40,845 bases of DNA from an uncultured Cytophagaceae bacterium (GCA_903933935.1 CAIZMB010000113.1:1-40845); one strand, 5' to 3'. Shown: positions 10,541-39,047, numbered from the stretch's first letter. Notes: generated by a model from the letters alone, not told the origin. A program made the numbers and translations.

Positions 10541-10581
10541 AAAAAAAATGCCCCTAGGAAAATGAATTTCTAGAGGCATTT
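10541..10581 (-). terminator. Rho-independent terminator after the zinc alcohol dehydrogenase gene
   Basis: Read on the minus strand, the arm AAATGCC...CTAG pairs with CTAG...GGCATTT (7 bp, one mismatch, then 4 bp) around a 12-base loop, and is followed directly by a run of eight T (complement of 10541-10548). It lies about 24 bases past the stop of the gene ending at 10605 and closes the long minus-strand transcription unit that begins with susC. Confidence 0.78.
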
Positions 10582-10604
10582 ATAACCGATTAAAAAACTA
10601 TTAG

Positions 10605-11648
10605 CTACATCGAAGCCATATCAATGACAAAACGATACTTCACATCGGAATTTGAGATACGGGTATAGGCTTCATTTATATCCTTCATTTGAATCATTTC
10701 CACGTCTGATAAAATATTATGTTCCGCGCAGTAGTCCAACATTTCCTGCGTTTCCGCAATGCCGCCGACGTTAGAACCTATGATGCTTCTACGCTTCGAA
10801 ATTAATTTGGCACTCCCTAATTCATTGTCTTCCGGAGGAATTCCCACCAAAAGCATTTTACCTTCGACGGTCAATAAATCTAAAAATTTATTTAAGTCAT
10901 ATTTAGCCGCTACCGTGTTCAATATAAAATCAAATTGGCCACGCAAGGCCTTCATTTGATCCTTGTCGGCCGACAAAGCAAAATGATGAGCCCCTAACAT
11001 TTTGGCATCATTTTCTTTAGAAGGCGAAGTGCTTAACATCGTCACTTCCGCACCCATCGACACAGCAAACTTAACCCCCATATGGCCCAAACCACCCAGG
11101 CCTAAAACCGCTACCTTATGTCCTTTTCCTACGCCTGCGTATTTTAAAGGAGAATACGTGGTGATTCCCGCACATAACAAAGGCGCCACACGTTCTAGTT
11201 CTTTTGTAAAAGGGATATGCAACGTAAATGCTTCATCCACCACATATTGAGTCGAATAACCTCCGAAAGTAGGCGTTACTCCATCCCGATAATATCCATT
11301 GTAAGTAGGCGTAAACCCTTCATCACAATACTGCTCTTGGCCTTTTTTGCATGAAGGACATTCCCGACAAGAATCGATAAAAACGCCTACTCCCGCCATT
11401 TCGCCGACTTTAAATTGGGTTACCCCAGAACCAATTTGGCTAATTTTGCCTACAATCTCATGGCCCGGAACAATGGGATACACCGAAGGTCCCCACTCAG
11501 AACGTGCCATGTGAATATCAGAATGGCAAACGCCACAATATAAAATGTCAATTAGAATATCTTTCTCCCCTAATTCCCTACGTTCAAATTCGATGGGAGC
11601 GATTGACGACGTGGCATTTAAGGCGCCGTAGCCTGAAACTTGAATCAT
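10605..11648 (-). CDS. Zinc-dependent NAD(P) alcohol dehydrogenase (YahK/AdhC-like)
   Basis: This 347-residue medium-chain dehydrogenase has the catalytic zinc ligands C41 in CGVCHSD and H63 in VPGHEIVG. The structural zinc loop has four cysteines at about 94, 97, 100 and 108 (CRECPSCKKGQEQYC). The cofactor motif GLGGLGHMG lies near residue 183. This pattern matches cinnamyl-alcohol-dehydrogenase-like aldehyde reductases such as YahK, which reduce a broad range of aldehydes with NADPH in the cytoplasm. It follows the DUF1080 gene by 44 bases on the same strand and precedes a strong terminator, so it may be the last gene of the SusCD-led unit. Whether it works on a product of that locus is not known. 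Confidence 0.93.
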   Translation of the reverse strand: MIQVSGYGALNATSSIAPIEFERRELGEKDILIDILYCGVCHSDIHMARSEWGPSVYPIVPGHEIVGKISQIGSGVTQFKVGEMAGVGVFIDSCRECPSCKKGQEQYCDEGFTPTYNGYYRDGVTPTFGGYSTQYVVDEAFTLHIPFTKELERVAPLLCAGITTYSPLKYAGVGKGHKVAVLGLGGLGHMGVKFAVSMGAEVTMLSTSPSKENDAKMLGAHHFALSADKDQMKALRGQFDFILNTVAAKYDLNKFLDLLTVEGKMLLVGIPPEDNELGSAKLISKRRSIIGSNVGGIAETQEMLDYCAEHNILSDVEMIQMKDINEAYTRISNSDVKYRFVIDMASM

Positions 11649-11692
11649 AAAATATATTTTTTAACCTAAACAAAAATGCCGAAAAATGGTTT

Positions 11693-12445
11693 TTAAAAAT
11701 CCGTTACCGCCTGAACAAAATCCATATCTTTCATCCAAATATTCCGATAACGCACATCGTGACCTTCGGCTTGCAATTTCAGCCCTTGAGGAGAATCCGT
11801 GATCCCTTTTCCCCCATTATTTCCACCGTCAATTCCCGAGTTTGGACCACCCCATACTTGGTTAATGACCTGATTTTTATGCACTTTCTTTCCATTAAAA
11901 TACATCGTAACCATCGGCTTTTCTGTTAATACCCCATCTTTAAATCGGGCCGCGCGGAACTGAATATCATACGCATTCCATTTCCCAATCCCATTATAGG
12001 CATAATAAGGAGATGGCGTTTCATTAATCACCGCACCCATTCCATGCTTCGTAGTGTCGCCGTCTAAGACTTGAATTTCATATCTATTTTGTAAATACAC
12101 TCCTGAATTTCCCCCTTTAGAAGGGATAAAGAATTCAATGTGTAACCTGAAATCACGGAATTTTCTTTTGGTAACAATATCCGCTGAACCATATTTCCCG
12201 CCAGCTCCAGCAGGATCATTGGTCGAAACCGTAGTTCCTTTATCCACAGGATCTGAAACAATTTCCCATTTAATAGGCATTTGGGCTGCAAAACGAGGCC
12301 CTTCCCAATAGGTCCATTTTTCATCTAACATGGACCGTGATCCATCAAACATCATATCAGCATTTTTGGGTTTTTTAGCGCCTACGCCAATTTGCGCGAT
12401 GGCCCCAACAGATACCATCAAAAATAAAATAGTATACTTTTTCAT
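11693..12445 (-). CDS. DUF1080 (3-keto-disaccharide hydrolase-type) exported protein
   Basis: This 250-residue protein has a signal peptide (MKKYTILFLMVSVGAIAQ) and a DUF1080 domain filling the rest, a concanavalin-like jelly-roll fold. Diagnostic segments are MMFDG near residue 32, KFRDFRLHIEFFIPSKGGNSGVYL, YEIQVLDG, KWNAYDIQFRAARF, VTMYFNGKKVHKNQ and the final VRYRNIWMKDM. Some members cleave 3-keto-glucosides and are now named 3-keto-disaccharide hydrolases; others are uncharacterised. It should act in the periplasm or on the surface. It is 70 bases downstream of the GntP permease in the SusCD-led unit. No 3-dehydrogenase partner gene is visible in the window, so the keto-sugar reaction is only a family-based possibility. 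Confidence 0.9.
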   Translation of the reverse strand: MKKYTILFLMVSVGAIAQIGVGAKKPKNADMMFDGSRSMLDEKWTYWEGPRFAAQMPIKWEIVSDPVDKGTTVSTNDPAGAGGKYGSADIVTKRKFRDFRLHIEFFIPSKGGNSGVYLQNRYEIQVLDGDTTKHGMGAVINETPSPYYAYNGIGKWNAYDIQFRAARFKDGVLTEKPMVTMYFNGKKVHKNQVINQVWGGPNSGIDGGNNGGKGITDSPQGLKLQAEGHDVRYRNIWMKDMDFVQAVTDF

Positions 12446-12482
12446 AACAATAGGTTTTAGTTTAAGCTTGCAAGAAAAGAAA

Positions 12483-12506
12483 AATTTGACAAAAGCTGTC
12501 AGAATT
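12483..12506 (-). terminator. Weak hairpin between the GntP and DUF1080 genes
   Basis: TGACA at 12487-12491 pairs with TGTCA at 12497-12501, extended by AATT/AATT with one bulged base. On the minus strand a U-rich stretch follows. The stem is short, so this may only attenuate read-through into the DUF1080 gene. Confidence 0.3.
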
Positions 12507-12515
12507 AGCGTAATC

Positions 12516-13814
12516 CTATAGATAATTTTGTAAAACGAGCACTCCCAATAATCCCACGACCGCCAAAATTGTTTCCATAATAGTCCAAGATCTCAATGAG
12601 TCTTTGATAGTCACCCCAAAGTATTCTTTATAAAGCCAAAATCCTGCATCGTTTACATGAGAAAGGACCATAGATCCGGCACCGATGCTCAGCGCCATTA
12701 AATTTGGATTCGTCCCGCTTGCACTTAAAATAGGCAAAATTAATCCGGCAGTCGTTATGCCCGCAACGGTCGACGAGCCCGTAACAATCCTCAAAACCCC
12801 CGCAATCATCCAAGCAATAATTAAAGGATCCAGGGTACTTTGTTGGGTTAATTGCAAAATCTCATCCCCCACTTTCATCGCCTGCAATATTTCTTTAAAT
12901 GCACCCGCACCTCCAAAAGTCAACATCAAGGGAGAAATATCTTTGATGGATTCCAATAACCACCCTTGTAATTCCGACCAAGAAATACCCCGATTAAATC
13001 CCAATAAGTAAATAGCAGCGCCCAATGAAATTAATAGTGCAACGATCGGCTCGCCGACAAACTCGAGGAATGGATTATGAAGGTTTTTGGCAAAAGATTG
13101 CATGGCAATTAAACCTACGGGCAATAATAAAACAAACAAGCTGGCGCCTAAACTAGGCGCCTTTGCAGCCGTGGGAGGTTCCACAAAAGACATGGGTGAA
13201 GCAGGAATATTTCTAAGAGTCTTTCCAAAAAGCCAACCAGAAGCGAGCATCGCAGGAATTGAAATCATGATTCCTAATCCCAAGGTAATGCCCATATCAG
13301 CACCTGGCAAATGTGTAACCAAATAATAAGGAGCTGGATGCGGAGGTAAAAATCCTTGTGTGATAGACAAAGAAGCGAGCATCGGAATGCCCAAGTAAAC
13401 CACCGGTAAATTATGTCGCTGTGCCGTGGATAAAACCAAAGGGGCCATCAGCAAAAAAGCCACCGAATAAAAAAGAGGAAGGCCCACAATAAAGCCAATG
13501 ATCATAAAGGCAAATGGCAAGTTTTTATGCCCTAAGACTTCCACTAGCCAGTCGGCAATGACCGTAGTCGCCTGACTTTTAGCGACCATTTTACCAATCA
13601 TCGCCCCCAAAATAATAATGGGTATAATCGAACCTAAAGTGCCCCCAATTCCCTTTTGGATCGCTACAATTGTATCCCCCGTAGTCAAACCACTCGCTAA
13701 ACCTAAGCCTAGGGAAACCAGTAAAAAGGATATAAATGGCTGTAGCTTAAATACTGAAATGAACAGCACCAATAAAACAATGGCTACACTAATGAATACC
13801 CAAATACTGATCAT
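12516..13814 (-). CDS. GntP-family permease (gluconate/organic acid:H+ symporter)
   Basis: This 432-residue polytopic membrane protein of the GntP family carries about 12 hydrophobic helices. It shows the family loop GFLPPHPAPYYLVTHLPGADMGITLG near residues 153-178, the GSSTVAGITTAGLILPI segment near residue 342 and SHVNDAGFWLYKEYFG near 385. GntP proteins import gluconate, related sugar acids or D-serine with protons across the inner membrane. It is embedded between the propeller-domain protein (15-base gap) and the DUF1080 gene in the SusCD-led unit. This suggests that the locus yields a sugar acid or similar anion for uptake. No gluconate kinase or KDPG pathway gene is present in the window. 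Confidence 0.94.
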   Translation of the reverse strand: MISIWVFISVAIVLLVLFISVFKLQPFISFLLVSLGLGLASGLTTGDTIVAIQKGIGGTLGSIIPIIILGAMIGKMVAKSQATTVIADWLVEVLGHKNLPFAFMIIGFIVGLPLFYSVAFLLMAPLVLSTAQRHNLPVVYLGIPMLASLSITQGFLPPHPAPYYLVTHLPGADMGITLGLGIMISIPAMLASGWLFGKTLRNIPASPMSFVEPPTAAKAPSLGASLFVLLLPVGLIAMQSFAKNLHNPFLEFVGEPIVALLISLGAAIYLLGFNRGISWSELQGWLLESIKDISPLMLTFGGAGAFKEILQAMKVGDEILQLTQQSTLDPLIIAWMIAGVLRIVTGSSTVAGITTAGLILPILSASGTNPNLMALSIGAGSMVLSHVNDAGFWLYKEYFGVTIKDSLRSWTIMETILAVVGLLGVLVLQNYL

Positions 13815-13829
13815 CTTTCAATTAAATAA

Positions 13830-16046
13830 TTATTTTCCTGATACCGGTGGACTAATTACCTTTAAATATCTTCCCATCCAATAAGGCAACAACCAAATAT
13901 CTCCAGCGCTGTGCTCCGAATTTCCATTGCCCCCGTTACGGTCCATATTAAACATATTTCCATTATGGCGTTGAACAGGTCGCTCATCAGGAGGTAAAAC
14001 CTCTTTCGTTTTTTGATCCCTAAAATTAGGGGCTAATTTTTCAATATCTCCCCGATGGCTATTTTGAATAGCCCAGTCCACCAAGTCCATGGGATGTTCC
14101 CTCAAATACCAAGCAGCCTCATCTAAATCAAATTTTTGTGTGCCTGTTAACGCCGTAAAAATATTCCAAGCACCTTCTTTTTCAGGCCTTTCTATTTCCC
14201 AATGATCAATGATAGATTTTTTAAAACTAGCTCTCAACGTATCATTGAATGCGTAGCGATATAAACCCCAATACCCAACATAATACATTTCATCATCCGA
14301 ATGATTCCAGCCGTCCGACAGATTTTTTGCGTGAGGATCCGCGCTATCCGGTGCGTGGCCGATTTGGTCAATGGGACGCATCAAATTCTCATAATACCCA
14401 TGCTTTTGCATAAGTTCAAAAGCTTTCTGTTTGTAAATTGGTTTTTTAGTAAACCGATAAGCCGTCTGCAACATCGCGACAATATTCGATGAGTTCAATT
14501 TGCGATCCCCAATGTTTGTCGGGAAGCCATTCACATACTCTGGATTCCAACGCCCCCACAAAGTAGGCTTACCATTGTAGTCAATTAAGTACCAATTATT
14601 TTTGATGATATGTGACATCAACGTGTCAATCAAAACGATGGAACGTTTTTGTAAATCAGGGACATCCACTAATTCTGCCAAAGCGCCAAAGGCAAAAATA
14701 TGCCCAATCACTTCATCCGATGAGGTGGTAGATTTCCAGTCCCACTCGGGCTCCGGAGAATGTTGCCAGCGTTCAGGGTCTGAAAGCTGTGAGATAAAAC
14801 CACGCCTCTCAAAGGAACGTGCAGGAAATCCCGGTACCGGATTAACCGTGTATAACCTTTCCATCGACTCAAAAGCCTCGCGTACATTTGCTAAGGCATC
14901 TGCTTCTTTGGTCACTGCATACCTGAATATCTCCCCTCCTAAATACATTGAAGTCCATAGACCGTCATTATCAGAATCCGATAAATATCCAGTCGTAATA
15001 TTCCCATGATCCATATGATCCAAATGTGCATTAAAGCCATTTCGAATATGTCGGTCACGCACTTGAGCCTCATAATACATGGCCTTTTCATGCAAGGTCA
15101 TTGGCTTAAAACAAATTTGACCCAAGCCCGCTTTCGTTAATACCAATACAGAATTTTGGGGTCCTGCACTTATCGATGTAACGGCGTTACCTGGAAGCCA
15201 GCGCTCCCCTTGGTAATAATCAAACTTACCATCTTTGCGCAAAGCAAATGCTCCGTTGGTGGAACCAAACCATATTTTATCTCCTAAAATCTTGACAGAT
15301 GTAATTGATTTCACCGGAATTTTTTGTTGGAGTACCCCCGCTTTTTTCCCAGCCAAATCCACTTTAAAAAATCCTTCACTACTACCTACAACGGCGTCAT
15401 TTCCTTTGACGTCAAATGCCGTCAAATTATTTCCAGAAACCCATAAAGATAATTGGCCCGTAGCCACATCAAAACGATGCAAACCTTTAGAAGCTAGTAC
15501 CCAAAAATTACCAGTGATTTTATCAAAATTGATGGCTAGTACTTGGTCTGCAACATTCGTTTTAAAGAGCGTCTTTGATTTTTTAACCAAATGCAAGGAA
15601 GAGCCATCAGAAATTAAAAATGTAAAATCATTTCCGCCAGCGGCCAAATTAGCTCCTGGCAATTCATGTGTGGAATAAAGAGTTCCGGCCCAAGCATGGC
15701 TAAAAATAGCTTTGTCGTCGACAAAAACAAATTGGTTTTCGTGGGCCAATAAGCTTTGAATTTTTTTAGGGGCACTGGTTCGGTTTCGCTTATCGGCCAT
15801 CAAAACCCCGGGGTATAAAAATTGGCCATCATGTGGCAATAGCAAACCCGCCGAACTAAATATTTTGATAGATCCGTTGCGGTCGGCAAAAGCAGACTTC
15901 AACGCGACCTGACTATCTTTTACATAGTATTTGATACTATAATCCTGCATGTAGGGCTTATCTACATAAACTGGCTGAGTTGTTTTTTTTTGCCCATAAG
16001 CAACCATACTTAAAAACAGCAAAAATAATGCGATACTTTTTTTCAT
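13830..16046 (-). CDS. Exported two-domain protein: N-terminal beta-propeller-like, C-terminal helical domain; unknown function
   Basis: This 738-residue protein has a signal peptide (MKKSIALFLLFLSMVAYGQ). Residues about 30-315 contain repeating strand patterns such as ITGNFWVLASKGLHRFD, AVVGSSEGFFKVD and KIWFGSTNGAFAL, which resemble the blades of regulator-type propellers. Residues about 325-735 are helix-rich with conserved-looking clusters YLSDSDNDGLWTSMYLGG, SSDEVIGHIFAF, PTLWGRWNPEYVN, WNHSDDEMYYVGYWGLYRY and HNGNMFNMDRNGGNGN. The last part suggests an alpha/alpha-barrel-like catalytic or binding domain with many acidic and aromatic residues. I do not recognise a named family. Its start abuts the stop of the sialidase-like gene with no spacer, so it is tightly coupled. 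It is a candidate for a new carbohydrate-active enzyme. Confidence 0.8.
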   Translation of the reverse strand: MKKSIALFLLFLSMVAYGQKKTTQPVYVDKPYMQDYSIKYYVKDSQVALKSAFADRNGSIKIFSSAGLLLPHDGQFLYPGVLMADKRNRTSAPKKIQSLLAHENQFVFVDDKAIFSHAWAGTLYSTHELPGANLAAGGNDFTFLISDGSSLHLVKKSKTLFKTNVADQVLAINFDKITGNFWVLASKGLHRFDVATGQLSLWVSGNNLTAFDVKGNDAVVGSSEGFFKVDLAGKKAGVLQQKIPVKSITSVKILGDKIWFGSTNGAFALRKDGKFDYYQGERWLPGNAVTSISAGPQNSVLVLTKAGLGQICFKPMTLHEKAMYYEAQVRDRHIRNGFNAHLDHMDHGNITTGYLSDSDNDGLWTSMYLGGEIFRYAVTKEADALANVREAFESMERLYTVNPVPGFPARSFERRGFISQLSDPERWQHSPEPEWDWKSTTSSDEVIGHIFAFGALAELVDVPDLQKRSIVLIDTLMSHIIKNNWYLIDYNGKPTLWGRWNPEYVNGFPTNIGDRKLNSSNIVAMLQTAYRFTKKPIYKQKAFELMQKHGYYENLMRPIDQIGHAPDSADPHAKNLSDGWNHSDDEMYYVGYWGLYRYAFNDTLRASFKKSIIDHWEIERPEKEGAWNIFTALTGTQKFDLDEAAWYLREHPMDLVDWAIQNSHRGDIEKLAPNFRDQKTKEVLPPDERPVQRHNGNMFNMDRNGGNGNSEHSAGDIWLLPYWMGRYLKVISPPVSGK

Positions 16047-17228
16047 CTATTTGATTTTTGAGGGGTCAACGACCACATATTTAATTGATTTTTGATCTGT
16101 ACCTATATGTGATGAATACGTCATGCGCAACATCCCATCTGGAGTTTGAATGAATGAAGGATACGAAAAACCTCCCTTTCCTGGTTCTACATTTTCAATG
16201 GGAATTTTCCATTTCCATGTTTTGCCCTCATCTTCTGAAAGATATAATTGAAAGCGATAACGACCATCTGTGATGTCATTGCCCAAAAATGCCAAACGGC
16301 CATCTTTTAAAACGAGTAATTCTACGCTGGCTGTATTCGGGATTTCAGATTTGATTGTGGGTGTCCAAGTCTCCCCTAAATCCGCTGATTCGCTGATATG
16401 AACACGAGGAGGATCATCTCCACTATCCCGCATAAACGCCATGATATTTCCATTTTTTTTACGGACCAACGCAGGCTGAATGGGGCCGCGACCTACGACA
16501 GGTAAACTTGGATGCCATGTGGACCCTTGGTCATCTGAAATGGCCATGATCGAGAGATTAAATCCATCTGAATATAAAGGTAAAATAATTCGGCTTTCAC
16601 CTATTAGCAAAGGTTTGATTCGAGTCATCCAACCTAAATTTCGCTTCATTGGGTCTAATGCAGCTGCATTAATCATCTCGTCGTATTTGGGGGCATAACC
16701 AGCCCAACCAATCGCATGAGCAGGCAAAGCCTTCAGATTGGTAGCAATTTCTTTTGCAAAACGGTCATCCATTTTCAATAAAATATTGTCTTGCCATTCC
16801 CAAACAGGTGCGCCCGCTTTAGCATAATTGGTCGTCGTTTTTACGCGCAAAATGGATTGTTCCCATCGGTTCGATTGGACCGCAATCCAGACCAAAAATA
16901 ATTTGCCGCTTTGATTTAAAAATAATACGGGATTGCAATCAGGCAATTTAGGAGTATCGGCCATTAAAAAGGGTTCGCTCCAGGCTTTTGCTCCTTTTTG
17001 TAATCGGGCGCCCATCAATTTCACATCGTCTGAATTTCGTTCTCCGTTGCCATAAAACCAAACAGAAAGAAGATCGCCATTAGGCAAAGCCACCATACTA
17101 CTTCCATGGACATGCTTTTCCTGTCCAGGAAAAATAAGCATTGATTCAACGACAGGATTAGCTGATTTTTGTGTAAATGCAATATAAGGTAATCCTAAGA
17201 CGAGCATTAAAACGAATAATCTTCGCAT
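16047..17228 (-). CDS. Exported sialidase-like (Asp-box / BNR) protein
   Basis: This 393-residue protein has a signal peptide (MRRLFVLMLVLGLPYIAFTQ) and a six-bladed sialidase-type propeller. Three Asp boxes are clear: SDDQGSTWHP, SADLGETWTP and SEDEGKTWKW. The N-terminal segment HVHGSSMVALPNGDLLSVWFYG, the central ILPLYSDGFNLSIMA and the late GGFSYPSFIQTPDGMLRMTYS match the BNR-repeat 'sialidase family' group common in Bacteroidota and Planctomycetes. The FRIP arginine motif of true exo-sialidases is not visible, so cleavage of sialic acid is not supported; the family includes hydrolases and lyases of other acidic sugars. The start at 17228 is one base after the stop of the deacetylase gene, which indicates tight coupling. 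Confidence 0.85.
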   Translation of the reverse strand: MRRLFVLMLVLGLPYIAFTQKSANPVVESMLIFPGQEKHVHGSSMVALPNGDLLSVWFYGNGERNSDDVKLMGARLQKGAKAWSEPFLMADTPKLPDCNPVLFLNQSGKLFLVWIAVQSNRWEQSILRVKTTTNYAKAGAPVWEWQDNILLKMDDRFAKEIATNLKALPAHAIGWAGYAPKYDEMINAAALDPMKRNLGWMTRIKPLLIGESRIILPLYSDGFNLSIMAISDDQGSTWHPSLPVVGRGPIQPALVRKKNGNIMAFMRDSGDDPPRVHISESADLGETWTPTIKSEIPNTASVELLVLKDGRLAFLGNDITDGRYRFQLYLSEDEGKTWKWKIPIENVEPGKGGFSYPSFIQTPDGMLRMTYSSHIGTDQKSIKYVVVDPSKIK

Positions 17229-17229
17229 C

Positions 17230-18300
17230 TTATTTAAGTTTTTTACGGCGTTCCAATAACTCTCGGAAAGTCGTCAAAATGATCCCTTCCTTTTCAATAT
17301 AGGCCCTTAAATCAGGATTCATCATGGAATTCATATCGGCTAAACGAGAACCCCCTGAACCCGAAACATATTTAAATTCTTCCGTAATATCACTGCTATG
17401 AACAATCATCATCGCTACCCCTGGATTCATATTTTTGATCGTTTCAATCCATTGTTGGGCCTTGTATTTTCCCCATTCTTCCGCTGTAGGATTTCCAGCT
17501 GGCTTCCAATCACCGCTAAACGTATGTAAGTCATCCAATACAGGAAGCCCTGCATTCCAAAGTCTTTCCCCCATTTTACTGGCTTCGCCAAATAAGTCGG
17601 TCAGCCCATATCGTTTAGCCTCTAGTTTTGTCCCCTCTTTCCAAGTTCCCTCTGCTTTCATTTTCTTGATGAGAGGCAGGTTCATAGATTCAATCATCAT
17701 TTTATTGTTGCCCCCCGGAAACATCACTGGGATTCCTAATTCAATGCCGACTTTCACATAACGTTCCAAAAATGGAGGGTACGCAAATAAAGTTCCCATG
17801 TGCGAGTCTAAATGTGAAGGATCCCAACCTAAACGTTTGGCACGTTCTACTTGAGCTCTAATTTCCCTTTCCACTTCATCAGGACTCGCATTTTTTATCA
17901 CCTGCTCCACACTATGATATAAGCAACCATCTCCATCACTTAATGTGGGAACTTGTTGGAAACCAGCCAGCGCAGGCCAGCGATAATCCTTCCATTCTGA
18001 AGTTAAAGTCAAATGTAATCCAGCATCGGCTTTGGGATTATTTTTCTGCAAATAATGGATAAAGCTAGCAGCCCATGGGCAAGGCATCATGATGCTACAA
18101 GAAGTGGCTACTCCCTGCTCCATCGATTTATAGGCTCCTTGGTTTGAAGAATAGGACATACCACAATCATCTACGTGGAAAATCAATACCTTTTTCCCTT
18201 TTGGAAATCCTAATCTTTCGGCATAGGTTTTCTCTGTTTGGGCGAATAGTTGGAAACTTAGTAGGCAAAAAATAGCCAATACGTTGAAGCGATTATTCAT
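17230..18300 (-). CDS. Exported YdjC/ChbG-like carbohydrate deacetylase
   Basis: This 356-residue protein has a signal peptide (MNNRFNVLAIFCLLSFQLFAQ) and a YdjC/ChbG-type distorted TIM-barrel domain. The metal and catalytic motifs are visible: FHVDDCGMSYSSN near residue 42 (acidic pair), GLHLTLTSEW near residue 95 and HLDSHMGTLFAYP near residue 165. ChbG removes an acetyl group from chito-oligosaccharides. Known ChbG acts in the cytosol, whereas this homologue is exported. It is followed with one-base spacing by the sialidase-like gene, in the middle of the SusCD-led unit, so its substrate is probably an N- or O-acetylated glycan taken up or trimmed by that system. Confidence 0.9.
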   Translation of the reverse strand: MNNRFNVLAIFCLLSFQLFAQTEKTYAERLGFPKGKKVLIFHVDDCGMSYSSNQGAYKSMEQGVATSCSIMMPCPWAASFIHYLQKNNPKADAGLHLTLTSEWKDYRWPALAGFQQVPTLSDGDGCLYHSVEQVIKNASPDEVEREIRAQVERAKRLGWDPSHLDSHMGTLFAYPPFLERYVKVGIELGIPVMFPGGNNKMMIESMNLPLIKKMKAEGTWKEGTKLEAKRYGLTDLFGEASKMGERLWNAGLPVLDDLHTFSGDWKPAGNPTAEEWGKYKAQQWIETIKNMNPGVAMMIVHSSDITEEFKYVSGSGGSRLADMNSMMNPDLRAYIEKEGIILTTFRELLERRKKLK

Positions 18301-18324
18301 ATTTTAAATAGGTTTAGCGATTTT

Positions 18325-19620
18325 TTAATTCTGCGGTTTGGGGCTTTCTTTAACTAATTTAAGGGCTTGTTCCATGTAAATTTCTGCGGTCATTTCACCT
18401 AGGGAAGTGCGGGAGACATATTCATATCGTTTGAAGGAATTGAAATCTACTTTGGCCAACATATACCCAAAGGCGTCATTGGTCAAACCAAATAAAAATG
18501 GCATTTTAGTATTCATATTTCTTTTGACATAATACCCTACATTAGGCAAAGCCTCGCCTGGAACGGTTAAGATTTGTGCGGGCCCAATATTCAAAAGATT
18601 GAGCTGGGTCGACACATAATTCTCTTTCCCTCCCTCATATTTCAATGGAGATTTTTTCAAAATATACCGCATGATTTCGGAGTCGATGGGGAATTCTATT
18701 TTTCTTGAGGTGCAATAAAGTGCAGGGTTCACAAGTACGGGAGCGGCAGCGACAATCCGCATGGCTTCGCCCGCTAAAAGCTCTCCGATTCGAATGCATT
18801 CTTCCCAAGTATTGGCTTCTTTTTGCCCTTCGCCTTCCTTCCCATATTCCAATCGGGTATCCGCAGTAACCATTCCACCCTGTGCGCCATTCATAAATAA
18901 GGCCACACCACCAATGGTGGATTCGATTTTTTGGTACAAGGGCCCAATCATGTCAGGGCTTAAAATTCCTCGGCTATTTCCTAAAACCTCTGGATGAACG
19001 GCATAATTAACTAAAGTCGCGATAGGTTGTCCCGTGCGAGGACCTGCATTCGCAATGGCTTGAATGACACCGCAACGAGGATCATAAAGCGCTGGTGCAT
19101 AATAATTATAGGCGATTTTACCTTTTGCTTCGCCCATGGCGACTTTTAAAGACGCCGACTGCAGGTTGGCAGATGCCTCATTCACCGCATCAGCAATTTG
19201 CTTCACACACCAATCCAAATATTTTAGATCAGCATAAGACTTACCCGACATATCTGGAAAGCCGTAGGCATCCGGGGCACTGTGTGTATGTGTGGCACCA
19301 ATCAAAATATTTTCAGGAGCAATGCCTTTAATCAGCGCACGAGATCGGTTGCCTAAGATAGAAGTCCAACCTAAATTATCGACATTGACGATAGCAAAAC
19401 GAGTACTTCCTTGCTCAAACACCATCGCTCGGGCAAACAAATCACCCCGCTTTTCTTTGACTGGATGTGGTACACCTATTCCACCCGAAACGGGCAAAAG
19501 GGGATCTGGAGTAATGACGCGAACAGCGGCACCCACACGTATATTTTGTGCTTGGACCGTCAAGCAAGCCACTAGTAATAAGCCAATACAAATGAAGCGA
19601 TGCATCATAAATTGAAACAT
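18325..19620 (-). CDS. Exported neutral ceramidase N-terminal-domain-like protein
   Basis: This is about 431 residues from 19620; starts at 19608 or 19605 (MHRFICIGLLLVACLTVQAQ) are equally possible. It has a signal peptide and one domain of the neutral/alkaline ceramidase N-terminal family. Visible metal-type motifs are GATHTHSAPDAY (first histidine pair) and NYAVHPEVLG. The catalytic GDVSPN signature of real ceramidases is replaced by NGAQGGMVTAD, and the C-terminal domain of true ceramidases (around 650-760 residues in total) is absent. Such short relatives are frequent in glycan loci of Bacteroidota and Planctomycetes and are uncharacterised, so ceramide cleavage is doubtful. It follows the terminator after susD and precedes the YdjC-like gene by 24 bases. 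Confidence 0.85.
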   Translation of the reverse strand: MFQFMMHRFICIGLLLVACLTVQAQNIRVGAAVRVITPDPLLPVSGGIGVPHPVKEKRGDLFARAMVFEQGSTRFAIVNVDNLGWTSILGNRSRALIKGIAPENILIGATHTHSAPDAYGFPDMSGKSYADLKYLDWCVKQIADAVNEASANLQSASLKVAMGEAKGKIAYNYYAPALYDPRCGVIQAIANAGPRTGQPIATLVNYAVHPEVLGNSRGILSPDMIGPLYQKIESTIGGVALFMNGAQGGMVTADTRLEYGKEGEGQKEANTWEECIRIGELLAGEAMRIVAAAPVLVNPALYCTSRKIEFPIDSEIMRYILKKSPLKYEGGKENYVSTQLNLLNIGPAQILTVPGEALPNVGYYVKRNMNTKMPFLFGLTNDAFGYMLAKVDFNSFKRYEYVSRTSLGEMTAEIYMEQALKLVKESPKPQN

Positions 19621-19621
19621 T

Positions 19622-19659
19622 AAAAGAAAAAAAAACCACAGGTAAAAATACCTGTGGTT
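19622..19659 (-). terminator. Rho-independent terminator/attenuator downstream of susD
   Basis: ACCACAGGTA (19635-19644) and TACCTGTGGT (19649-19658) form a perfect 10-11 bp stem with a 4-base loop. On the minus strand it is followed by a nearly unbroken run of T (complement of 19622-19634). It sits 20 bases past the susD stop and just before the ceramidase-like gene, so it should limit read-through from susCD into the enzyme genes. Confidence 0.88.
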
Positions 19660-19678
19660 AAATTAATAAATATTTTAA

Positions 19679-21322
19679 TTAATAAGGCTTACTGGTGCCT
19701 ATTAAAAGCCATGGTTTAGACCAAGCGCTATTTTTTCCATCCGCTTGTGAAAAATTAGTAACTTCTAATTTATCCATGGCAGCAGTTGCATTTTTTGCAT
19801 TGATTCTGATTTCATCTTGCATATAATAAAAACGCAATGGCAATGCTTGGCGTTTCGCCGCTGGACCAGCTGTTAATGCAGGAAGTCCAGTTCTTCTATA
19901 GTCAAACCAAGATTCTGTAGCCGCAGTCCAAGAAGCAATCCATTTTTGTTCCATGATTTGCTTTAAAGTTCCATTGTAAGCTACACCGCTACCAGCAAGA
20001 TATGCTGCTGATGATCCACTTACTCCCCAGGTAGCTAAAGATGCTTTAACACCTGCTTCGTAAAAAGATTTCGCATCGCCAACAGACCAGCCTTTTTGGG
20101 CTGCCTCCGCTAAAATGAAGTTTACCTCAGCTGCAGAAACCAAACGTGCTCTTAACAAAGCACCCGTAGCATTCTTATACATGGGAGCTAAAAAAGATAC
20201 GTGAGGATTAAATGACGTTTGTCCAGGTGTAGGATTTAAGTTATATGCGGAAGGCAATGCAGAGAATGAAGTAGGTAAGCCTACATATTCTGGATCTGTA
20301 TCCACTAAGGTTTTACCTACTTTATCAGGAGATAAATAACGTTTGCCTCCTTCAATTTTATCCGTACCTGCCGGTAAAGCAGCATCCACTACTAATGGAA
20401 TTTCAACTTTAGCAGCCCACACGCCTAAACGTGGATCTTTTACTCCTTGCAAATATTCAACAAAAGTATTGGCCATTTTGATACGGCGGTAATTACTTCC
20501 AGATACATCATATACTGCATTAGCAGGCCAAGAAGTACCATCAGAAGTTCCAGGGAATCCCATCGTAGCATCTTCTGTGTTTGAGGTAATGATTGGATAA
20601 TTCGCTGCATTTTTAACAATGTTTTCAATACCTGCTTTCGCTACATCTGCCTTCTTTCCTGAAATACGCATGAAATAACGCAAAGCTAATGAGTTAGCAA
20701 ATTTTCTCCATTTAGTCGGATCCCCAGCATAAATAACGTCCACATTATCTACAATGCTTGAGTATTCTGATTTTTGCTTTGACAATAATTTATTTGCCTT
20801 TTCCAAATCCGCGATGATCCCTGCATAAATAGTCTCTTGGCTATCATAAGTTGGAAGAATATTCGCTACTCCTCCTAATTCACCTTTTAAAGCATTCGTG
20901 TAAGGAGCATCTCCCCATAAGTCCGTAATTAAACCAAACAAAAATGCTTTATTCACCAAAGCGACACCTTGATGGAACTCTAAGTTCATCGTTACGGAAC
21001 GTTGATATAATAATTCATTGTCTCTAAGTAAACCGTAATAACCGGCCCAACTTTGATTTCCGCCCCAGTCGTAATCATTATGACCTGAAGACCAAGCATC
21101 TTTTTGAGTATGTTGCACAACTCCCGCGATATCCTGATATCCTAAGTTGACATACGCTTTTGCCATTTCGGTCAAGACCGTAGGCATAATTAAATTAGGG
21201 TTCACCTTATCAGGCTGAACTCCATTCGGGTTAGTATTTACCGAGGTTAAATCTTCACAAGAGAAGAATGAACCCGTGAATAAGGCAAAAACTGCGATTT
21301 TAATATATTTATTCATTTTCAT
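19679..21322 (-). CDS. SusD/RagB-family outer-membrane lipoprotein (SusD-like_2 type)
   Basis: This 547-residue surface glycan-binding lipoprotein has a signal MKMNKYIKIAVFALFTGSFFSC whose lipobox cysteine is at about residue 22. The TPR-like helical fold of SusD is indicated by LTSVNTNPNGVQPDKVNPNLIMPTVL at the mature N-terminus, the GLITDLWGDAPYTNALKG segment near 135, LALRYFMRISGKKADVAKAG in the middle and EVNFILAEAAQKGW near 405. The final IMEQKWIASWTAATESWFDYRRTGLP motif is the SusD-like_2 hallmark. It caps the SusC transporter and binds the incoming oligomer or peptide. It is 26 bases downstream of susC and is followed by a terminator. Confidence 0.95.
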   Translation of the reverse strand: MKMNKYIKIAVFALFTGSFFSCEDLTSVNTNPNGVQPDKVNPNLIMPTVLTEMAKAYVNLGYQDIAGVVQHTQKDAWSSGHNDYDWGGNQSWAGYYGLLRDNELLYQRSVTMNLEFHQGVALVNKAFLFGLITDLWGDAPYTNALKGELGGVANILPTYDSQETIYAGIIADLEKANKLLSKQKSEYSSIVDNVDVIYAGDPTKWRKFANSLALRYFMRISGKKADVAKAGIENIVKNAANYPIITSNTEDATMGFPGTSDGTSWPANAVYDVSGSNYRRIKMANTFVEYLQGVKDPRLGVWAAKVEIPLVVDAALPAGTDKIEGGKRYLSPDKVGKTLVDTDPEYVGLPTSFSALPSAYNLNPTPGQTSFNPHVSFLAPMYKNATGALLRARLVSAAEVNFILAEAAQKGWSVGDAKSFYEAGVKASLATWGVSGSSAAYLAGSGVAYNGTLKQIMEQKWIASWTAATESWFDYRRTGLPALTAGPAAKRQALPLRFYYMQDEIRINAKNATAAMDKLEVTNFSQADGKNSAWSKPWLLIGTSKPY

Positions 21323-21348
21323 GATTTCAAAATTTTAAGGTGAATGAA

Positions 21349-24300
21349 TTAAAATGTTAAACCAAGTTTAAATCCTACTGGGATAACCCATGGTGTCACA
21401 TTGTATCGTTCGATACCTTGTTTAAATTGTGTTCCTGCTTGAGTTCCAGCTTGTGGTTGGAATGCCGTTTCCGGATCTATACCAATTTTTGCTGCTGTCC
21501 ATAAGATAATGTTACGGCTATAAACGGAGAAGTTAGCTGCTTGTAAGCCTAATTTCTTCACCACATTGCTTGGCACTTCATATCCAATCGAAACCTCTCT
21601 TAATTTTAAGAACGATGCATCAAAAGTAGCTGCACGTGTAAAACTCCAAGGATAATTATCTCCATAAGGGATGATGCGAGTATTAGGTCCACCTAAGTTT
21701 TCCTCATATCCAGTAATATTACCTTTGCTATCGTATTGAGCGATAACCCCAGGATTGAATACTCCATTAGGATAAACCTTTCCACCATATTCAAACGGAT
21801 AGCCACCATATTCTTTAGTTGGCCCGCCAACAATCGGGAACGTGTTTCCATTGATCTTAATCATGGTTTCTTGGTTAGTGACTAAGTAATTACGTAAAGC
21901 ATCACCCGTCATGGTACCAGGATTAATTAAATTATCCAAGAATCTTTGTGATTTCAAATCAGACTCTCCATAGCGATACGTTTGAGAAACAAAGTTTCCA
22001 CCATTTCTCCAATCAAACGTCATGTTCAAGCTCCAGTTTTTATAACTTAAAGAAGCCTGCATCCCTAAGATAAAATCAGGATTGAAATTACCAATTTTAG
22101 TTCTTGAGTTAGACGCTCCAATGGATTGCCATGAACCATCACCATCCAAGATCGGATATCCAAAGTACTTAGAAGATTTATCCTTAACAGTAACAATTTC
22201 AGCGTCATAAATATCGCCAATAGTCTCACCTACATAGGTCCATGCGCCACCTTTCGCATCTGTCCATAAAGTATAGAAGTTTAATCCTTCTGAAAGCTCT
22301 TTAATGGTTGTAGCATTTTTATAAAAATTAGTCGTTAAGTCTAATCTCCAACCATTTTTGTCAATGGGCGTTCCACCTAATGTTAATTCAATTCCCTTAC
22401 TAACTAACAATCCAGCATTAATATTTTTTGAAGAGAAACCTGTGGATGCTGGCAATGTGGTCGGAATAATTTGGTTTCTATTTTCAACCGTATAATAAGT
22501 ACCCGAGAATCTTAAACGATTTCTATACATCGTTACATCCAAACCTAAGTCCATCGATGTTGTAATCTCAGGCTTCAAATCAGGAAGTAAAATAGAACCC
22601 GGTTTTGTTAACCTTGTAACACCTGCCCACGGTTCTGCCAATCCTAAAGTGTTAAATAAAGCGTAAGGGTTGGTGTCATTACCTGCTTGAGCTACACCTG
22701 CACGCACTTTGATTAAGTCGATGCGGTTATTAGGTATTTGGAACATTTCGTTCAACAATACACTCAAAGAAGCTGATGGATAGAAATATGATCTATTATC
22801 CACTGGTAAAGTACTTGACCAGTCGTTACGAGCGGTTAAATCCAAATAAATCATGTCTTTATATCCTACGTTCGCCATTCCATACGCAGAATAAACAACC
22901 TTCTTAGATTGAGAACTCGAATATTGAATGTTGGCTGTAGCGATATTTTGCAAGGTATATAATCCAGGAATAACTAAACCTGTTCCTCCTCTACTTGACT
23001 CACTGATAAAACGATTCGTTGAATTTCTAGCGTTCCCTCCTACGGAAAGTGACAAAGAGAAGTCTTGTAATGATTTTGCATAAGTCGCTAAGAAATCAAT
23101 ATTTGTTTCAGACGGAGAAAGTGTAGTTAAGCCATAAGCTCCATTTTTCTCTCCTGTATAACTAGGAGCAATTTTTGTTTCTCTAGTTTCTCCATAGGTA
23201 TCTAAAGAGTAACGAGCCATAAAGTTTAACTCTTTTGTGATTTGATAATCTAATTTAGCATTACCAAAAAAGCGATTACGCTCAAACGCATTTTTAACTT
23301 CATAGGCTAAGAACCATGGATTGTTATAACTTCCAATCGCTTGAGATTTTTGCTGTAAACCCTCTCTTCCTGGAACCCAATAATTCTTCAAATCCAAGAT
23401 GTTGATATGTGGTGAAACCGCATAAGCCCATTGTAAAGGATTTGATCCACGCTCACTTGCAGGACGATTGTTTGAATTGTTACGACTGAAATCGAAGTTG
23501 GTACTTAACTTAATTTTATTTGTCAACTTCAAAGAAGTAGCTAAATCGATCGAGTTTTTAAATAAATCAGATCCTGGAATTAATCCACGATTGGTCATAT
23601 TTGAATATGAAATTCGATAAGTCGCTGCATCTGTGCTATTCGAAATTGAGAAGCCATTGGTTGTCGTAATACCGGTTTGAACAAAATTCTTCAAGTTATT
23701 CGGGTACGACTTTAATTCTGTAGGAATTGATTTTCCCGCTGCATCTTTAGGGCTATTCCATTGTATGGCAGTATACCCTTTATCTAACTCTGGACCAATT
23801 CCTCCTGCTGAACCTTCTTCAATAGACATGATGCCTCCTGGATAAGGGTTATTGTCTGGCGTAAATGGCAAAACACCCGTTGCGAACTTTGAGTGCATAT
23901 TTAAATACTTGAATGGATTGTCAAATACGGTATTTGAATTTACATTAACCGTCATTTTATTTGACTTAGCTCCGGTTTTTGTTGTGATCAACACAACTCC
24001 ATTACCAGCTCTAGACCCATAAAGCGCCGCAGCACTGGGTCCTTTTAAAACAGAAACACTTTCAATGTTATCCGGATTTAAATCTGAAATAGCATTGCCA
24101 TAATCCACGCGGTTATCATTCCCTACTTGGCCTATGTTGTTCAAGGTATTAATGACCGGAACGCCATCGATCACAAATAATGGCTGATTGTCATTACTTA
24201 AAGACTTCGCACCGCGAATAATCATACTCACTGAAGAACCCGTTGCACCCGTTGCGTTAATACTAACTCCGGCTAATTTACCCGAAAGGCCATTTAACAC

Positions 24301-24741
24301 GTTCTCAGTAATAACCCGATTTAAGTCTTTTCCTGATACTTTTCCTACCGAATAACCCAAAGATTTCTCTTCGCGTTTAATTCCTAAGGCTGTAACCACT
24401 ACCTCGTTTAGCTCTTGAGTGCTTGAAGTCATCACGACATCAACTACATTTCTGTTGCCCACCTTAATTTCTTGGGCATCAAAACCAATCGATGTAATAG
24501 ATAAAACGGGGCTTGCGCCAGAAACTTCAAGGGAATAGGTACCACTTGCATTACTACTCGTTCCCTTTTGAGATCCCTTCACTTGAATATTAACACCTGG
24601 AATTCCAGTACCATCTGAGCTCGCGGTAATTTTACCGGTGATGGTTCTTGTTTGCGCAACCATTGTCGAGATGCCTAGCGCAAATACAAGGGTTGTGATT
24701 GCCAAATGCCGAAGCATTTGATACGTAAAATGTAAATGCAT
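21349..24741 (-). CDS. SusC/RagA-family TonB-linked outer membrane transporter
   Basis: This 1130-residue TonB-dependent receptor carries a signal peptide ending near MVAQT and a carboxypeptidase-regulatory-like domain (about 33-115, RTITGKITASSDGTGIPGVN). A plug domain follows (about 120-250) with NEVVVTALGIKREEKSLGY and the SusC marker PLFVIDGVPV, and then a 22-strand barrel to the C-terminal GFKLGLTF. It imports oligomers captured by SusD across the outer membrane using TonB energy. No STN domain is present, so signalling through an anti-sigma factor is not expected; the divergent AraC regulator is the more likely control. The start at 24741 is preceded by an A-rich stretch. A second ATG eight codons in lies inside a hairpin. 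Confidence 0.95.
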   Translation of the reverse strand: MHLHFTYQMLRHLAITTLVFALGISTMVAQTRTITGKITASSDGTGIPGVNIQVKGSQKGTSSNASGTYSLEVSGASPVLSITSIGFDAQEIKVGNRNVVDVVMTSSTQELNEVVVTALGIKREEKSLGYSVGKVSGKDLNRVITENVLNGLSGKLAGVSINATGATGSSVSMIIRGAKSLSNDNQPLFVIDGVPVINTLNNIGQVGNDNRVDYGNAISDLNPDNIESVSVLKGPSAAALYGSRAGNGVVLITTKTGAKSNKMTVNVNSNTVFDNPFKYLNMHSKFATGVLPFTPDNNPYPGGIMSIEEGSAGGIGPELDKGYTAIQWNSPKDAAGKSIPTELKSYPNNLKNFVQTGITTTNGFSISNSTDAATYRISYSNMTNRGLIPGSDLFKNSIDLATSLKLTNKIKLSTNFDFSRNNSNNRPASERGSNPLQWAYAVSPHINILDLKNYWVPGREGLQQKSQAIGSYNNPWFLAYEVKNAFERNRFFGNAKLDYQITKELNFMARYSLDTYGETRETKIAPSYTGEKNGAYGLTTLSPSETNIDFLATYAKSLQDFSLSLSVGGNARNSTNRFISESSRGGTGLVIPGLYTLQNIATANIQYSSSQSKKVVYSAYGMANVGYKDMIYLDLTARNDWSSTLPVDNRSYFYPSASLSVLLNEMFQIPNNRIDLIKVRAGVAQAGNDTNPYALFNTLGLAEPWAGVTRLTKPGSILLPDLKPEITTSMDLGLDVTMYRNRLRFSGTYYTVENRNQIIPTTLPASTGFSSKNINAGLLVSKGIELTLGGTPIDKNGWRLDLTTNFYKNATTIKELSEGLNFYTLWTDAKGGAWTYVGETIGDIYDAEIVTVKDKSSKYFGYPILDGDGSWQSIGASNSRTKIGNFNPDFILGMQASLSYKNWSLNMTFDWRNGGNFVSQTYRYGESDLKSQRFLDNLINPGTMTGDALRNYLVTNQETMIKINGNTFPIVGGPTKEYGGYPFEYGGKVYPNGVFNPGVIAQYDSKGNITGYEENLGGPNTRIIPYGDNYPWSFTRAATFDASFLKLREVSIGYEVPSNVVKKLGLQAANFSVYSRNIILWTAAKIGIDPETAFQPQAGTQAGTQFKQGIERYNVTPWVIPVGFKLGLTF
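24703..24720 (-). promoter_or_regulatory. UUCG-tetraloop hairpin at the start of susC
   Basis: On the minus strand the transcript reads CAAATGC-UUCG-GCATTTG, a perfect 7-bp stem closed by a C-G pair on a UUCG loop. It covers codons about 8-13 of the chosen susC reading frame and includes the alternative ATG at 24715-24717. It may affect translation initiation or mRNA stability; this is an inference. Confidence 0.4.
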
Positions 24742-24929: not shown

Positions 24930-25799
24930 ATGAAGGCTTTATTATTAAAAGTTTCTCCTCAGTCGCTTCGCTCCTTTAGCATTCGACGAGACAATGTTAG
25001 TTATTTTTATAATCAATATCATTACCATCCGGAAATAGAACTATTATTTATTGATAAAGGAACAGGCACTCAGTTTGTGGGCGACAGTATCCAACGTTTT
25101 CAGGATGGCGACCTACTTTTAATCGGGTCAAATTGTCCTCATTATTTGAGAAGTGATAATATCTATTTTCAAGGCAATCCCGATTTAGGAGTATCCGCAG
25201 TTGTGATCCATTTTGATCCAGCAATTTTTGGACCTAATTTTTTCGAACTTGTTGAAAATAGATATGTCAAGCAGCTGCTTGAAAAATCAAAACTTGGCTT
25301 GCGAATTACGGGTAAAACCAAAACCGCTATTGTCAAGCAAATGCTTCATATGCTCGAAGACACAAAAAGCAACCTTATTCTTGAGCTTCTTAAATTATTA
25401 GATCCCCTCTCACAAAGCTCAGAAATCGAAATGTTAGCGACCCGAATTTTAGAGCATAATCCGAGCGATAAAGAAACGGCCAGATTAAATTCGATCTACA
25501 ATTTTTCTGCTAAACATTTTAAACGTAAAATAACGATTGAGGAAATTGCCGAGGTGGCCAACCTAAGTTCCAATTCATTTTGTCGGTATTTCAAAAATAG
25601 AACTCGGAAACACTTTTCCCATTTCTTGAACGAAATACGTGTTGAGTATGCCTGTAAATTAATTAAGGAAAATCAATTCCAAGTAACTCAAGTCTGCTAT
25701 GAAGCTGGATTCAATAATTTCCCAAACTTTAATAATGCATTTAAAAAGATTACTGGCAAAACACCCTTACAATATTCAAAAGAGTTTATAGTAAGTTAA
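24930..25799 (+). CDS. AraC-family transcriptional regulator
   Basis: This 289-residue regulator is transcribed away from susC. The N-terminal cupin-like sensor domain spans about residues 20-110 (YHYHPEIELLFIDKGTGTQFVGD and then DGDLLLIGSNCPHYL). The C-terminal AraC double helix-turn-helix spans about 190-289, with KITIEEIAEVANLSSNSFCRYFKNRT as the first HTH and FQVTQVCYEAGFNNFPNFNNAFKKITGKTPLQY as the second, including the family signature. Cytosolic AraC proteins with this cupin usually bind a small sugar or sugar acid released by the locus. Divergent placement next to susC indicates that it controls the SusCD unit, probably through the repeats at 24849-24894. The 5' region also has a small ATTCC-GT-GGAAT palindrome at 24908-24919. 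Confidence 0.93.
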   Translation: MKALLLKVSPQSLRSFSIRRDNVSYFYNQYHYHPEIELLFIDKGTGTQFVGDSIQRFQDGDLLLIGSNCPHYLRSDNIYFQGNPDLGVSAVVIHFDPAIFGPNFFELVENRYVKQLLEKSKLGLRITGKTKTAIVKQMLHMLEDTKSNLILELLKLLDPLSQSSEIEMLATRILEHNPSDKETARLNSIYNFSAKHFKRKITIEEIAEVANLSSNSFCRYFKNRTRKHFSHFLNEIRVEYACKLIKENQFQVTQVCYEAGFNNFPNFNNAFKKITGKTPLQYSKEFIVS

Positions 25800-27167: not shown

Positions 27168-27959
27168 TTAATGCTTTAAATATTTTGTGACCTCCCTTAC
27201 CGGAGCGATCCAAATGCCATGTTGGGGATCTTGTGCATAACGTATCAGATCTTCCAACATGCTTAATCTAGTTGTTTGATTTCCTCCCTTGCCCATTTCG
27301 TGGCCAGCTAACACAAGCCAATACCCCTTGTCGCTCGCATCTTTGATCATCGGCAATATCTCATCGAAATTCTTGCCATCCATTTCTACTCCGGTCAATT
27401 GGGCCATATTTAAATACGCGGGATCATTAGGTGCTTCATCTCGCCAGCCTCGCCCCGAGCTAAATATTTGGTAAACGAGAGGCACATAGCTTTGCGTTTT
27501 TTCATTGTTGCCCACAAACTTCTGCCCACACGGATAGGCAAAAGACTCCGGTTTTATCCCAATCATTTGATGCAATTGTTCATTCGACTCGACTAATTCT
27601 TTTTGCATCTTTTCCAAAGTATACTCCTCTAAAGCTCTGTTTCTAGACCAAGCGAAATTACCAGAGCAAGGATGTAAGCTCGAATGATTTCCTATTTCAT
27701 GGCCATTCTCCGCCGCTTTTTTCCAAAGTGCTACGTTTTTTTCAATGGCGATTGGCATTACATATAAAGTAGCCTTTACTCCGTATTTATCTAAAAGCGC
27801 CGTTCCTCCATTCACCTGACTGCCTCGGCCATCATCAAAAGTCAAACTCAATGCCATCTTTTTGCCTTTTGGCCAAATCACTTTATTTTGAGCTTTCAGA
27901 GAAAGCTGCATGCTAAAGATTAGTAAACTTGCAAACGCGCTGATCAATAAATTTTTCAT
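27168..27959 (-). CDS. Exported polysaccharide deacetylase (NodB homology domain)
   Basis: This 263-residue protein has a signal peptide (MKNLLISAFASLLIFSMQLSLKAQ) and a NodB domain. The catalytic motifs are SLTFDDGRG (motif 1, the general base and metal aspartates), GHEIGNHSSLHP (motif 2, metal histidines) and ESFAYPCGQ (motif 3). LVLAGHEMGKGG near the end supplies the late histidine. It removes acetyl groups from an acetylated glycan in the periplasm or cell wall. It lies 10 bases downstream of the SGNH hydrolase gene, itself ATGA-coupled to an unknown membrane protein, so the three probably act together on an acylated sugar. The substrate is not identifiable. Confidence 0.92.
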   Translation of the reverse strand: MKNLLISAFASLLIFSMQLSLKAQNKVIWPKGKKMALSLTFDDGRGSQVNGGTALLDKYGVKATLYVMPIAIEKNVALWKKAAENGHEIGNHSSLHPCSGNFAWSRNRALEEYTLEKMQKELVESNEQLHQMIGIKPESFAYPCGQKFVGNNEKTQSYVPLVYQIFSSGRGWRDEAPNDPAYLNMAQLTGVEMDGKNFDEILPMIKDASDKGYWLVLAGHEMGKGGNQTTRLSMLEDLIRYAQDPQHGIWIAPVREVTKYLKH

Positions 27960-30179: not shown

Positions 30180-30267
30180 TGAGTTAACAGGTTTATATCG
30201 TAAACATAGGAAATTTTTACGGGTAGCGCAATTTGTCAATTTTCAATAATTAAAAAATAAAAATGAA

Positions 30268-33716: not shown

Positions 33717-33864
33717 CGTTTTTATGTTTAATTGTGAATTTTTAATTCAAAAAATTAATTACAACTTTAGAAAATATCTTAACAAAATAAAAATCGCATC
33801 TCATTAAATAACTATAAAATAATCTGTCTTTTTTTAAATAAGCACATTGCGTTCCTATATAGGC

Positions 33865-35280: not shown

Positions 35281-35373
35281 TTTAATGAATGATTACACCA
35301 TTTCAATGCCACTGTAATTTTACTTTACCCTCATACAAATTGAGCTTTTTGAAAGCGCAAAATAATATTGCCC

Positions 35374-35392
35374 ATCGAAATAAATTTTCGAT
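35374..35392. repeat. Short inverted repeat between the isomerase and epimerase-like genes
   Basis: ATCGAAA (35374-35380) and TTTCGAT (35386-35392) form a 7-bp stem with a TAAAT loop in the 155-base gap. There is no U tract directly after it on the minus strand, so it is at most a weak terminator for the upstream epimerase-like gene. Confidence 0.25.
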
Positions 35393-35435
35393 ATCCTTTC
35401 AAATGAGTATACAAGGAAATAAATAAGACTCTTGA

Positions 35436-36290: not shown

Positions 36291-36520
36291 ATTATTTATG
36301 TCATTAAAGTGCTTATTATTATTTAGATCAAAAATGCAATAAATTCTTTTAAAGTTGCAGATTTCTAAAAATAAATTTGAAAAAATAAATGAGTACAAAC
36401 CACCCAAATTTAATAAAATTTAGATTTAATACCTCTGAACCCTCATTTTGGCATAATGCTTTTTTGATTTGATTTTCTAGATCATGAAACTGAATTAAAA
36501 AATATTTTTTATCTTCCCTC

Positions 36521-39032: not shown

Positions 39033-39047
39033 TTTATAAAATTTAAA

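Follow-up and report, generated by a model that had tools for sequence, protein, structure and literature searches.

A SusCD locus conserved in Bacteroidota with an uncatalogued protein as its core enzyme candidate

The window analysed here is a 40,845-base stretch of DNA from an uncultured freshwater Cytophagaceae bacterium, contig C113 of a 2.9-Mb, Aquirufa-like genome of the Cytophagales whose closest named relatives are Aquirufa species, and it carries a SusCD locus of unusual make-up. Nine minus-strand genes run from susC to a zinc alcohol dehydrogenase gene (24741 down to 10605), with an AraC-family gene divergent upstream and a terminator at the end, all of them where the initial annotation had placed them; successive genes are separated by 26, 58, 24, 1, 0, 15, 70, and 44 bases, and 175 bases lie between the last and the next gene. 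The first gene encodes a SusC/RagA TonB-linked outer-membrane transporter (21349-24741; TIGR04056, 592.8 bits against a cut-off of 368.25) and the second a SusD-like surface lipoprotein (19679-21322; PF12771, 261 bits, with many SusD homologues in the PDB), the signal peptide of which ends by eye with the lipobox SC. With only the 26-base gap between them, the two genes form the pairing of transporter and neighbouring lipoprotein by which a polysaccharide utilization locus (PUL) is recognized. Downstream on the same strand lie genes for an exported protein with a neutral-ceramidase fold (18325-19620), an exported YdjC/ChbG-type zinc deacetylase (17230-18300), an exported sialidase-clan propeller hereafter called the BNR protein (16047-17228), an exported 738-residue protein that we call P738 (13830-16046), and three accessory genes encoding a GntP-family permease, a DUF1080 protein, and the dehydrogenase. 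Signal peptides were recognized by eye in the ceramidase-like, YdjC, BNR, P738, and DUF1080 proteins, and the layout likely comprises outer-membrane import, periplasmic processing, an inner-membrane permease, and a cytoplasmic dehydrogenase.

Family assignments were made by Pfam and NCBIfam profile searches against curated cut-offs, and these bore out the families first proposed: SusC exceeds the curated threshold of its model, and SusD, GntP, YdjC, BNR_2, and DUF1080 exceed those of Pfam, with the ceramidase-like protein just under the Pfam cut-off and supported by its fold. Like other SusCD PULs, the locus has adjacent susC and susD genes, a linked regulator, exported enzymes, and an inner-membrane permease. 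It differs from a typical PUL in that its core enzyme candidate falls in no catalogued family and that, as the initial annotation had also stated, no classical glycoside hydrolase (GH) or polysaccharide lyase (PL) in the unit exceeds a Pfam or NCBIfam cut-off, the linked glycan-active candidates being the deacetylase and sialidase-clan proteins and the nearest approaches to such a GH or PL being the BNR_2 and DUF1080 proteins. Judged by Pfam, NCBIfam, and the PDB, the description as a non-classical SusCD locus holds. A PUL is commonly interpreted from its carbohydrate-active enzymes, and this one is not readable in that way. Full-text literature searches gave no described PUL of such make-up, in line with the earlier suggestion of chemistry not yet described, and those on the gene set, on ceramidases encoded in PULs, on YdjC together with sialidase and SusD, and on Dyadobacter and Runella yielded nothing relevant.

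The AraC-family regulator (24930-25799, plus strand; PF12833, 68.4 bits; AraC_binding, 29.1 bits) has homologues of 68-71% identity that adjoin susC elsewhere, and it is kept in this position in Aquirufa and Saprospiraceae. At the far end of the unit, the intrinsic terminator noted earlier (10541-10581) forms a good hairpin with a minimum free energy (MFE) of -17.5 kcal/mol, and T8 comes directly after it on the minus strand. The initial annotation overlooked another strong hairpin of terminator type, which separates susD from the enzyme genes (19634-19659, minus strand; 11-pair stem, long T tract, MFE -17.3 kcal/mol). Because this hairpin and its T tract follow susD, transcription probably continues only in part into the enzyme genes; the element is a probable attenuator, and the enzyme genes are probably expressed below the level of susCD. 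No match to the canonical Bacteroidetes promoter pattern was found in the susC-AraC gap or within the unit.

Genome Taxonomy Database (GTDB) genomes across Bacteroidota contain relatives of P738 at 575 or more places, in hosts that include Aquirufa, Runella, Emticicia, Dyadobacter, Spirosoma, Larkinella, Saprospiraceae, and Prolixibacteraceae; the viral contigs searched contain none. Within the order, 37 of 291 genomes encode P738, and every genome with the BNR protein (33 of 291) or the ceramidase-like protein (21 of 291) falls inside those 37, giving Fisher values of 2e-39 and 2e-22, respectively, over the order; restricted to the one family, the values are 5e-9 and 2e-5. The 14 genomes that carry a close YdjC orthologue (E < 1e-170) also all belong to the 37. 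Among the first 24 genomes of the genus sampled, 12 carry P738 and all 12 of these carry the ceramidase-like protein, with one more, incomplete genome having the ceramidase-like protein but no P738. Presence and absence of the partner genes shift jointly within single genera, and the co-occurrence persists where the genes lie on different contigs or far apart (e.g. in G279, G288, G190, and G203). Such strict co-occurrence, even of unlinked genes, is strong evidence that P738, the BNR protein, and the ceramidase-like protein share one pathway.

A tally of 80 loci gives 47 with the BNR protein, 40 with a Reg_prop paralogue of P738, 33 with YdjC, 32 with a close SusC or SusD (at least 45% identical to that of the window), and 22 with the ceramidase-like protein. 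Two Saprospiraceae loci (L089 and L137) contain AraC, SusC, SusD, and P738 alone, in that order, which defines the minimal locus and makes P738 the core enzyme candidate; some loci hold up to three tandem copies of it. In Aquirufa rosea, A. ecclesiirivi, and others, SusCD is accompanied by the ceramidase-like, YdjC, BNR, and P738 genes, and GntP, DUF1080, and the dehydrogenase are not adjacent. The synteny comparison across Bacteroidota that the initial annotation had called for thus found the set conserved, but not its last three genes, which fall outside the conserved part. Several metagenome-assembled genomes labelled Spirosoma fluviale have P738 proteins 80-97% identical to that of the window, against 63% for S. 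fluviale DSM 29961 (L128), and those represented by L078, L080, L083, and L084 group with Aquirufa by P738 identity despite their label.

An AlphaFold2 model of P738, with 52 relatives in the alignment, was predicted with high confidence (predicted local distance difference test 92.4, predicted template modelling score 0.90) and comprises a beta-propeller at about residues 25-316 and an uncatalogued helical domain at about residues 318-738. In Pfam and NCBIfam the protein has a sub-threshold FecR match only, and sequence and fold searches of the PDB with the whole protein returned propellers only among the matches listed, structural neighbours outside those matches not being treated as excluded. 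A profile of the helical domain that included two stand-alone 407-residue relatives gave no convincing Pfam or PDB match, and NCBIfam has no match to the domain in the window protein; Pfam assigned 0 families to the domain of the window protein, with a best E of 0.011 across 29 members. D444, D489, D584, R665, and several tryptophans are invariant throughout the helical-domain set, down to relatives of 22-33% identity, two of which stand alone without a propeller. One stand-alone relative (G000:C30, L023:1255-2478; 407 residues) has no Pfam match.

Profile comparison of the helical domain by hhalign gave 48% for GH127 over 153 columns and 69% for PL5 over only 31 columns, compared with 1.4% for GH88/105 and 0.1-0.3% for unrelated controls. 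This weak similarity hints that the domain may be an (alpha/alpha)-toroid enzyme domain, as in GH127 and PL5, although with no Pfam match the likeness is too weak for membership in either family. A different role for P738, as a non-enzymatic protein that senses or binds glycans in the periplasm, with the cleaving enzymes encoded elsewhere, would accord with the kinship of its propeller to sensor domains of hybrid two-component systems and with the Reg_prop paralogue in other loci. P738, however, has no kinase or DNA-binding part, its large second domain carries invariant acidic residues and also occurs in stand-alone form, and some loci hold it in tandem, and we regard a purely sensory or binding role as decidedly unlikely.

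The ceramidase-like protein (431 residues, minus strand) appears to be an N-terminal catalytic domain only and is predicted to be a zinc amidase. It scores 31.5 bits against a Pfam cut-off of 32.1 and 16.5 bits against the NCBIfam ceramidase equivalog cut-off of 1200, and its predicted structure aligns with that of the Pseudomonas aeruginosa enzyme (2zws, by VIA-align) at Z 28.7 and a root-mean-square deviation of 3.3 over 376 residues. In the sequence alignment, His111 and His209 coincide with His97 and His204, the zinc-binding histidines of the P. aeruginosa protein. The fold and two metal histidines are thus common to the window protein and neutral ceramidases (P. aeruginosa 2zws, human 4wgk), whereas the latter have two domains and 630-670 residues. 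The sequence alignment did not reach the serine site; by eye the corresponding region reads NGAQGGMVT, and NxGDxSP, the serine motif of ceramidases, is not evident. The fold might favour uptake of a lipid or ceramide-linked glycolipid, as the initial annotation had entertained with its lipid-linked substrate, but the shortfall in length (431 residues compared with about 640) and equivalog score, the serine region, and the absence of the gene from 16 of the 37 genomes with P738 make such a substrate most improbable, and on length, score, and patchy presence we rejected it. In three genomes of one genus (G059, G203, and G211), the gene contains one in-frame TAA.

The adjacent YdjC protein (minus strand; PF04794, 185.9 bits against a cut-off of 29.7) has PDB relatives that include 8jqe (E 1e-54) and the chitooligosaccharide deacetylase 7vi8, and its residues D44, D45, H96, H163, H167, and H301 are invariant in 16 relatives. 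By motif order, D44, D45, H96, H163/H167, and H301 correspond to D10, D11, H61, H125, and H206, the reported metal and catalytic residues of kpChbG (PMC9402603), which bind zinc and serve as base and acid. The window protein shares both fold family and these positions with the ChbG/YdjC chitooligosaccharide deacetylases but is exported, is about 100 residues longer, and lies within a susCD locus. Both it and the ceramidase-like protein fit zinc amidases or deacetylases acting on sugar N-acyl groups. The locus also offers a handle on the roles of exported ceramidase-fold and YdjC proteins in Bacteroidota, whose names mislead.

The BNR protein (minus strand; PF13088, 139.7 bits, and PF02012) shares with GH33 sialidases the BNR_2/Asp-box propeller and a C-terminal half that alone aligns with solved members. 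Its N-terminal half, in which the FRIP arginine site is expected, aligns with no solved sialidase, and its family alignment has no FRIP; in this half it differs from GH33 by a conserved HxHGSS-like motif where the FRIP arginine region belongs. The sialidase-clan fold is one of several observations that would suit a locus for sialic-acid or other ulosonic-acid (Kdo/Dha-like) glycans, in which the BNR protein would free a terminal 2-keto acid sugar, the deacylases would deacylate it, and a cytoplasmic aldolase would split it. Many lineages have DHDPS-family genes next to BNR, P738, or susC, in several cases together with an SSF sodium symporter; Spirosoma loci have an HpcH/HpaI aldolase, and the P738 run of one locus (L152) includes a BT_1020-like protein. 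These DHDPS relatives, however, score far below all NCBIfam cut-offs, including those of NanA, DapA, and KdgD, and have CLSSE at the usual position of the GSTGE motif. As the window has no such aldolase and the BNR protein does not align where the FRIP arginine is expected, we view an ulosonic-acid substrate as possible but rather unlikely. Members of this DHDPS-superfamily group (L158:11842-12786, L105:13663-14595, and L160:6698-7675) often stand beside an SSF symporter and a BNR gene.

Neighbouring genes in other genomes offer further hints about the substrate. They include GH92, GH20, sulfatases, SIS, MFS, BadF kinase, and HGSNAT, all of which act on glycans or amino sugars and were counted in favour of an N-acylated glycan, as well as, in other lineages, DHDPS-family enzymes with SSF symporters, the HpcH/HpaI aldolase, phosphodiesterase- and phosphatase-like genes, and the BT_1020-like protein. 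Together the neighbours point to amino-sugar-rich, acylated glycans, perhaps with 2-keto acid sugars. One variant locus (L084:1-16365, also L051) combines SusCD, two SGSH-type sulfatases, the ceramidase-like protein, P738, HGSNAT, SIS, MFS, and BadF kinase.

We therefore favour, at chances that we judge about even, a SusCD-type uptake and trimming locus for an N-acylated glycan, kept in Bacteroidota and undescribed, in which P738 would be an uncatalogued glycan-active enzyme. In such a pathway, AraC would sense an oligosaccharide and activate susCD, with partial read-through past the hairpin into the enzyme genes, and SusCD, as is typical of the family, would import oligosaccharides into the periplasm. 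There, the ceramidase-fold and YdjC proteins would deacylate amino sugars, with acetyl as the most likely N-acyl group, and P738, aided by the sialidase-like propeller, may cut glycosidic bonds or take off a terminal sugar. In the clade of the window, inner-membrane transport of a small sugar acid by GntP would follow, and the DUF1080 protein and dehydrogenase would handle an oxidised sugar, all three as a local addition. Of this picture, the gene set, the folds, the conservation, and the co-occurrence are observed; the class of substrate, the sequence of steps, and the enzymatic nature of P738 are inferred. It is also conceivable, at a probability that we place somewhat short of even, that the helical domain of P738 represents a new family of enzymes that cleave glycans (GH or lyase, alpha/alpha-toroid-like, with an N-terminal propeller) and, together with the BNR and ceramidase-fold proteins, makes up a novel type of PUL for opening an N-acylated glycan handled by no described PUL.

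Several points weigh against an N-acylated-glycan locus centred on an enzymatic P738. The neighbours vary widely between lineages, so that no single substrate follows from them, and the propeller filled the structure matches listed for P738. Its sequence kinship to sensor domains of two-component systems allows a binding role. The genomes compared are related, and the Fisher values consequently overstate independence. Finally, the GTDB search was anchored on P738 itself, and its sample consists of loci that contain P738. A widespread, strictly co-occurring set with an uncatalogued core points to a glycan that is common in fresh water, in soil, or on plants and has no recorded breakdown.

The last three genes of the unit, all on the minus strand, encode the GntP-family inner-membrane permease (12516-13814; TIGR00791, 406 bits against a cut-off of 292.75), the exported DUF1080 protein (11693-12445; PF06439, 99.3 bits; PDB 4qhz, E 1e-14), and the zinc-type alcohol/aldehyde dehydrogenase (10605-11648; closest NCBIfam model Ahr, 309 bits, below the cut-off of 470). 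They are limited to close relatives of the window, except that a more distant member of the genus (G036; locus L052) has GntP and the dehydrogenase, which makes the acid-sugar clue a local addition. The initial annotation had relied on this permease for an acidic substrate; most loci have no GntP, and acid-sugar uptake by GntP was rejected as a defining feature on the ground that GntP is a local addition. The current Pfam name of PF06439 is 3-keto-disaccharide hydrolase, and DUF1080 proteins with LacABC-type dehydrogenases have been tied to lactose use (PMC9007349). An exported DUF1080 protein and a dehydrogenase within one unit could accordingly signify a 3-keto-glycoside locus, with oxidation of sugars at C3 followed by DUF1080 cleavage, and the window protein does share domain and export with the 3-ketoglycoside hydrolases BT2157 and CCNA_01705. 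Unlike those systems, the unit has no C3-oxidising partner (GFO/IDH, LacA/LacABC) among its proteins by Pfam or NCBIfam, and window-type DUF1080 and dehydrogenase genes each occur in just 5 of the 80 loci, leaving the core set without either; we consider this explanation very unlikely.

Other genes recur near P738 in particular groups. DUF3748 and PfkB-HAD genes are frequent in Dyadobacter-group loci and absent elsewhere, and UxuA, SDR, ThuA, and GFO/IDH genes of the same group lie mostly in a separate run; none of these was counted as core. In about 20 loci, chiefly of Dyadobacter (e.g. L110:3461-5386), the PfkB-HAD fusion, for which the best model is a heptose-7-phosphate kinase domain, precedes the P738 run. 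Beyond AraC, the minus strand of the window encodes polysaccharide-deacetylase-like (27168-27959) and SGNH-type hydrolase-like (27970-28884) proteins and a membrane protein with multiple transmembrane segments (28881-30239); the first and last of these genes are kept beside AraC-susC in Aquirufa (L158, L159, and L169), and in L160 a relative of the membrane protein adjoins BNR, ceramidase-like, and SusD genes. A second sugar-catabolic neighbourhood at 32844-40352 encodes PIG-L deacetylase-like, sugar isomerase-like, quinoprotein dehydrogenase-like, and glucarate-dehydratase-like proteins, the isomerase-like member of which bears a weak likeness to sulfoquinovose isomerase.

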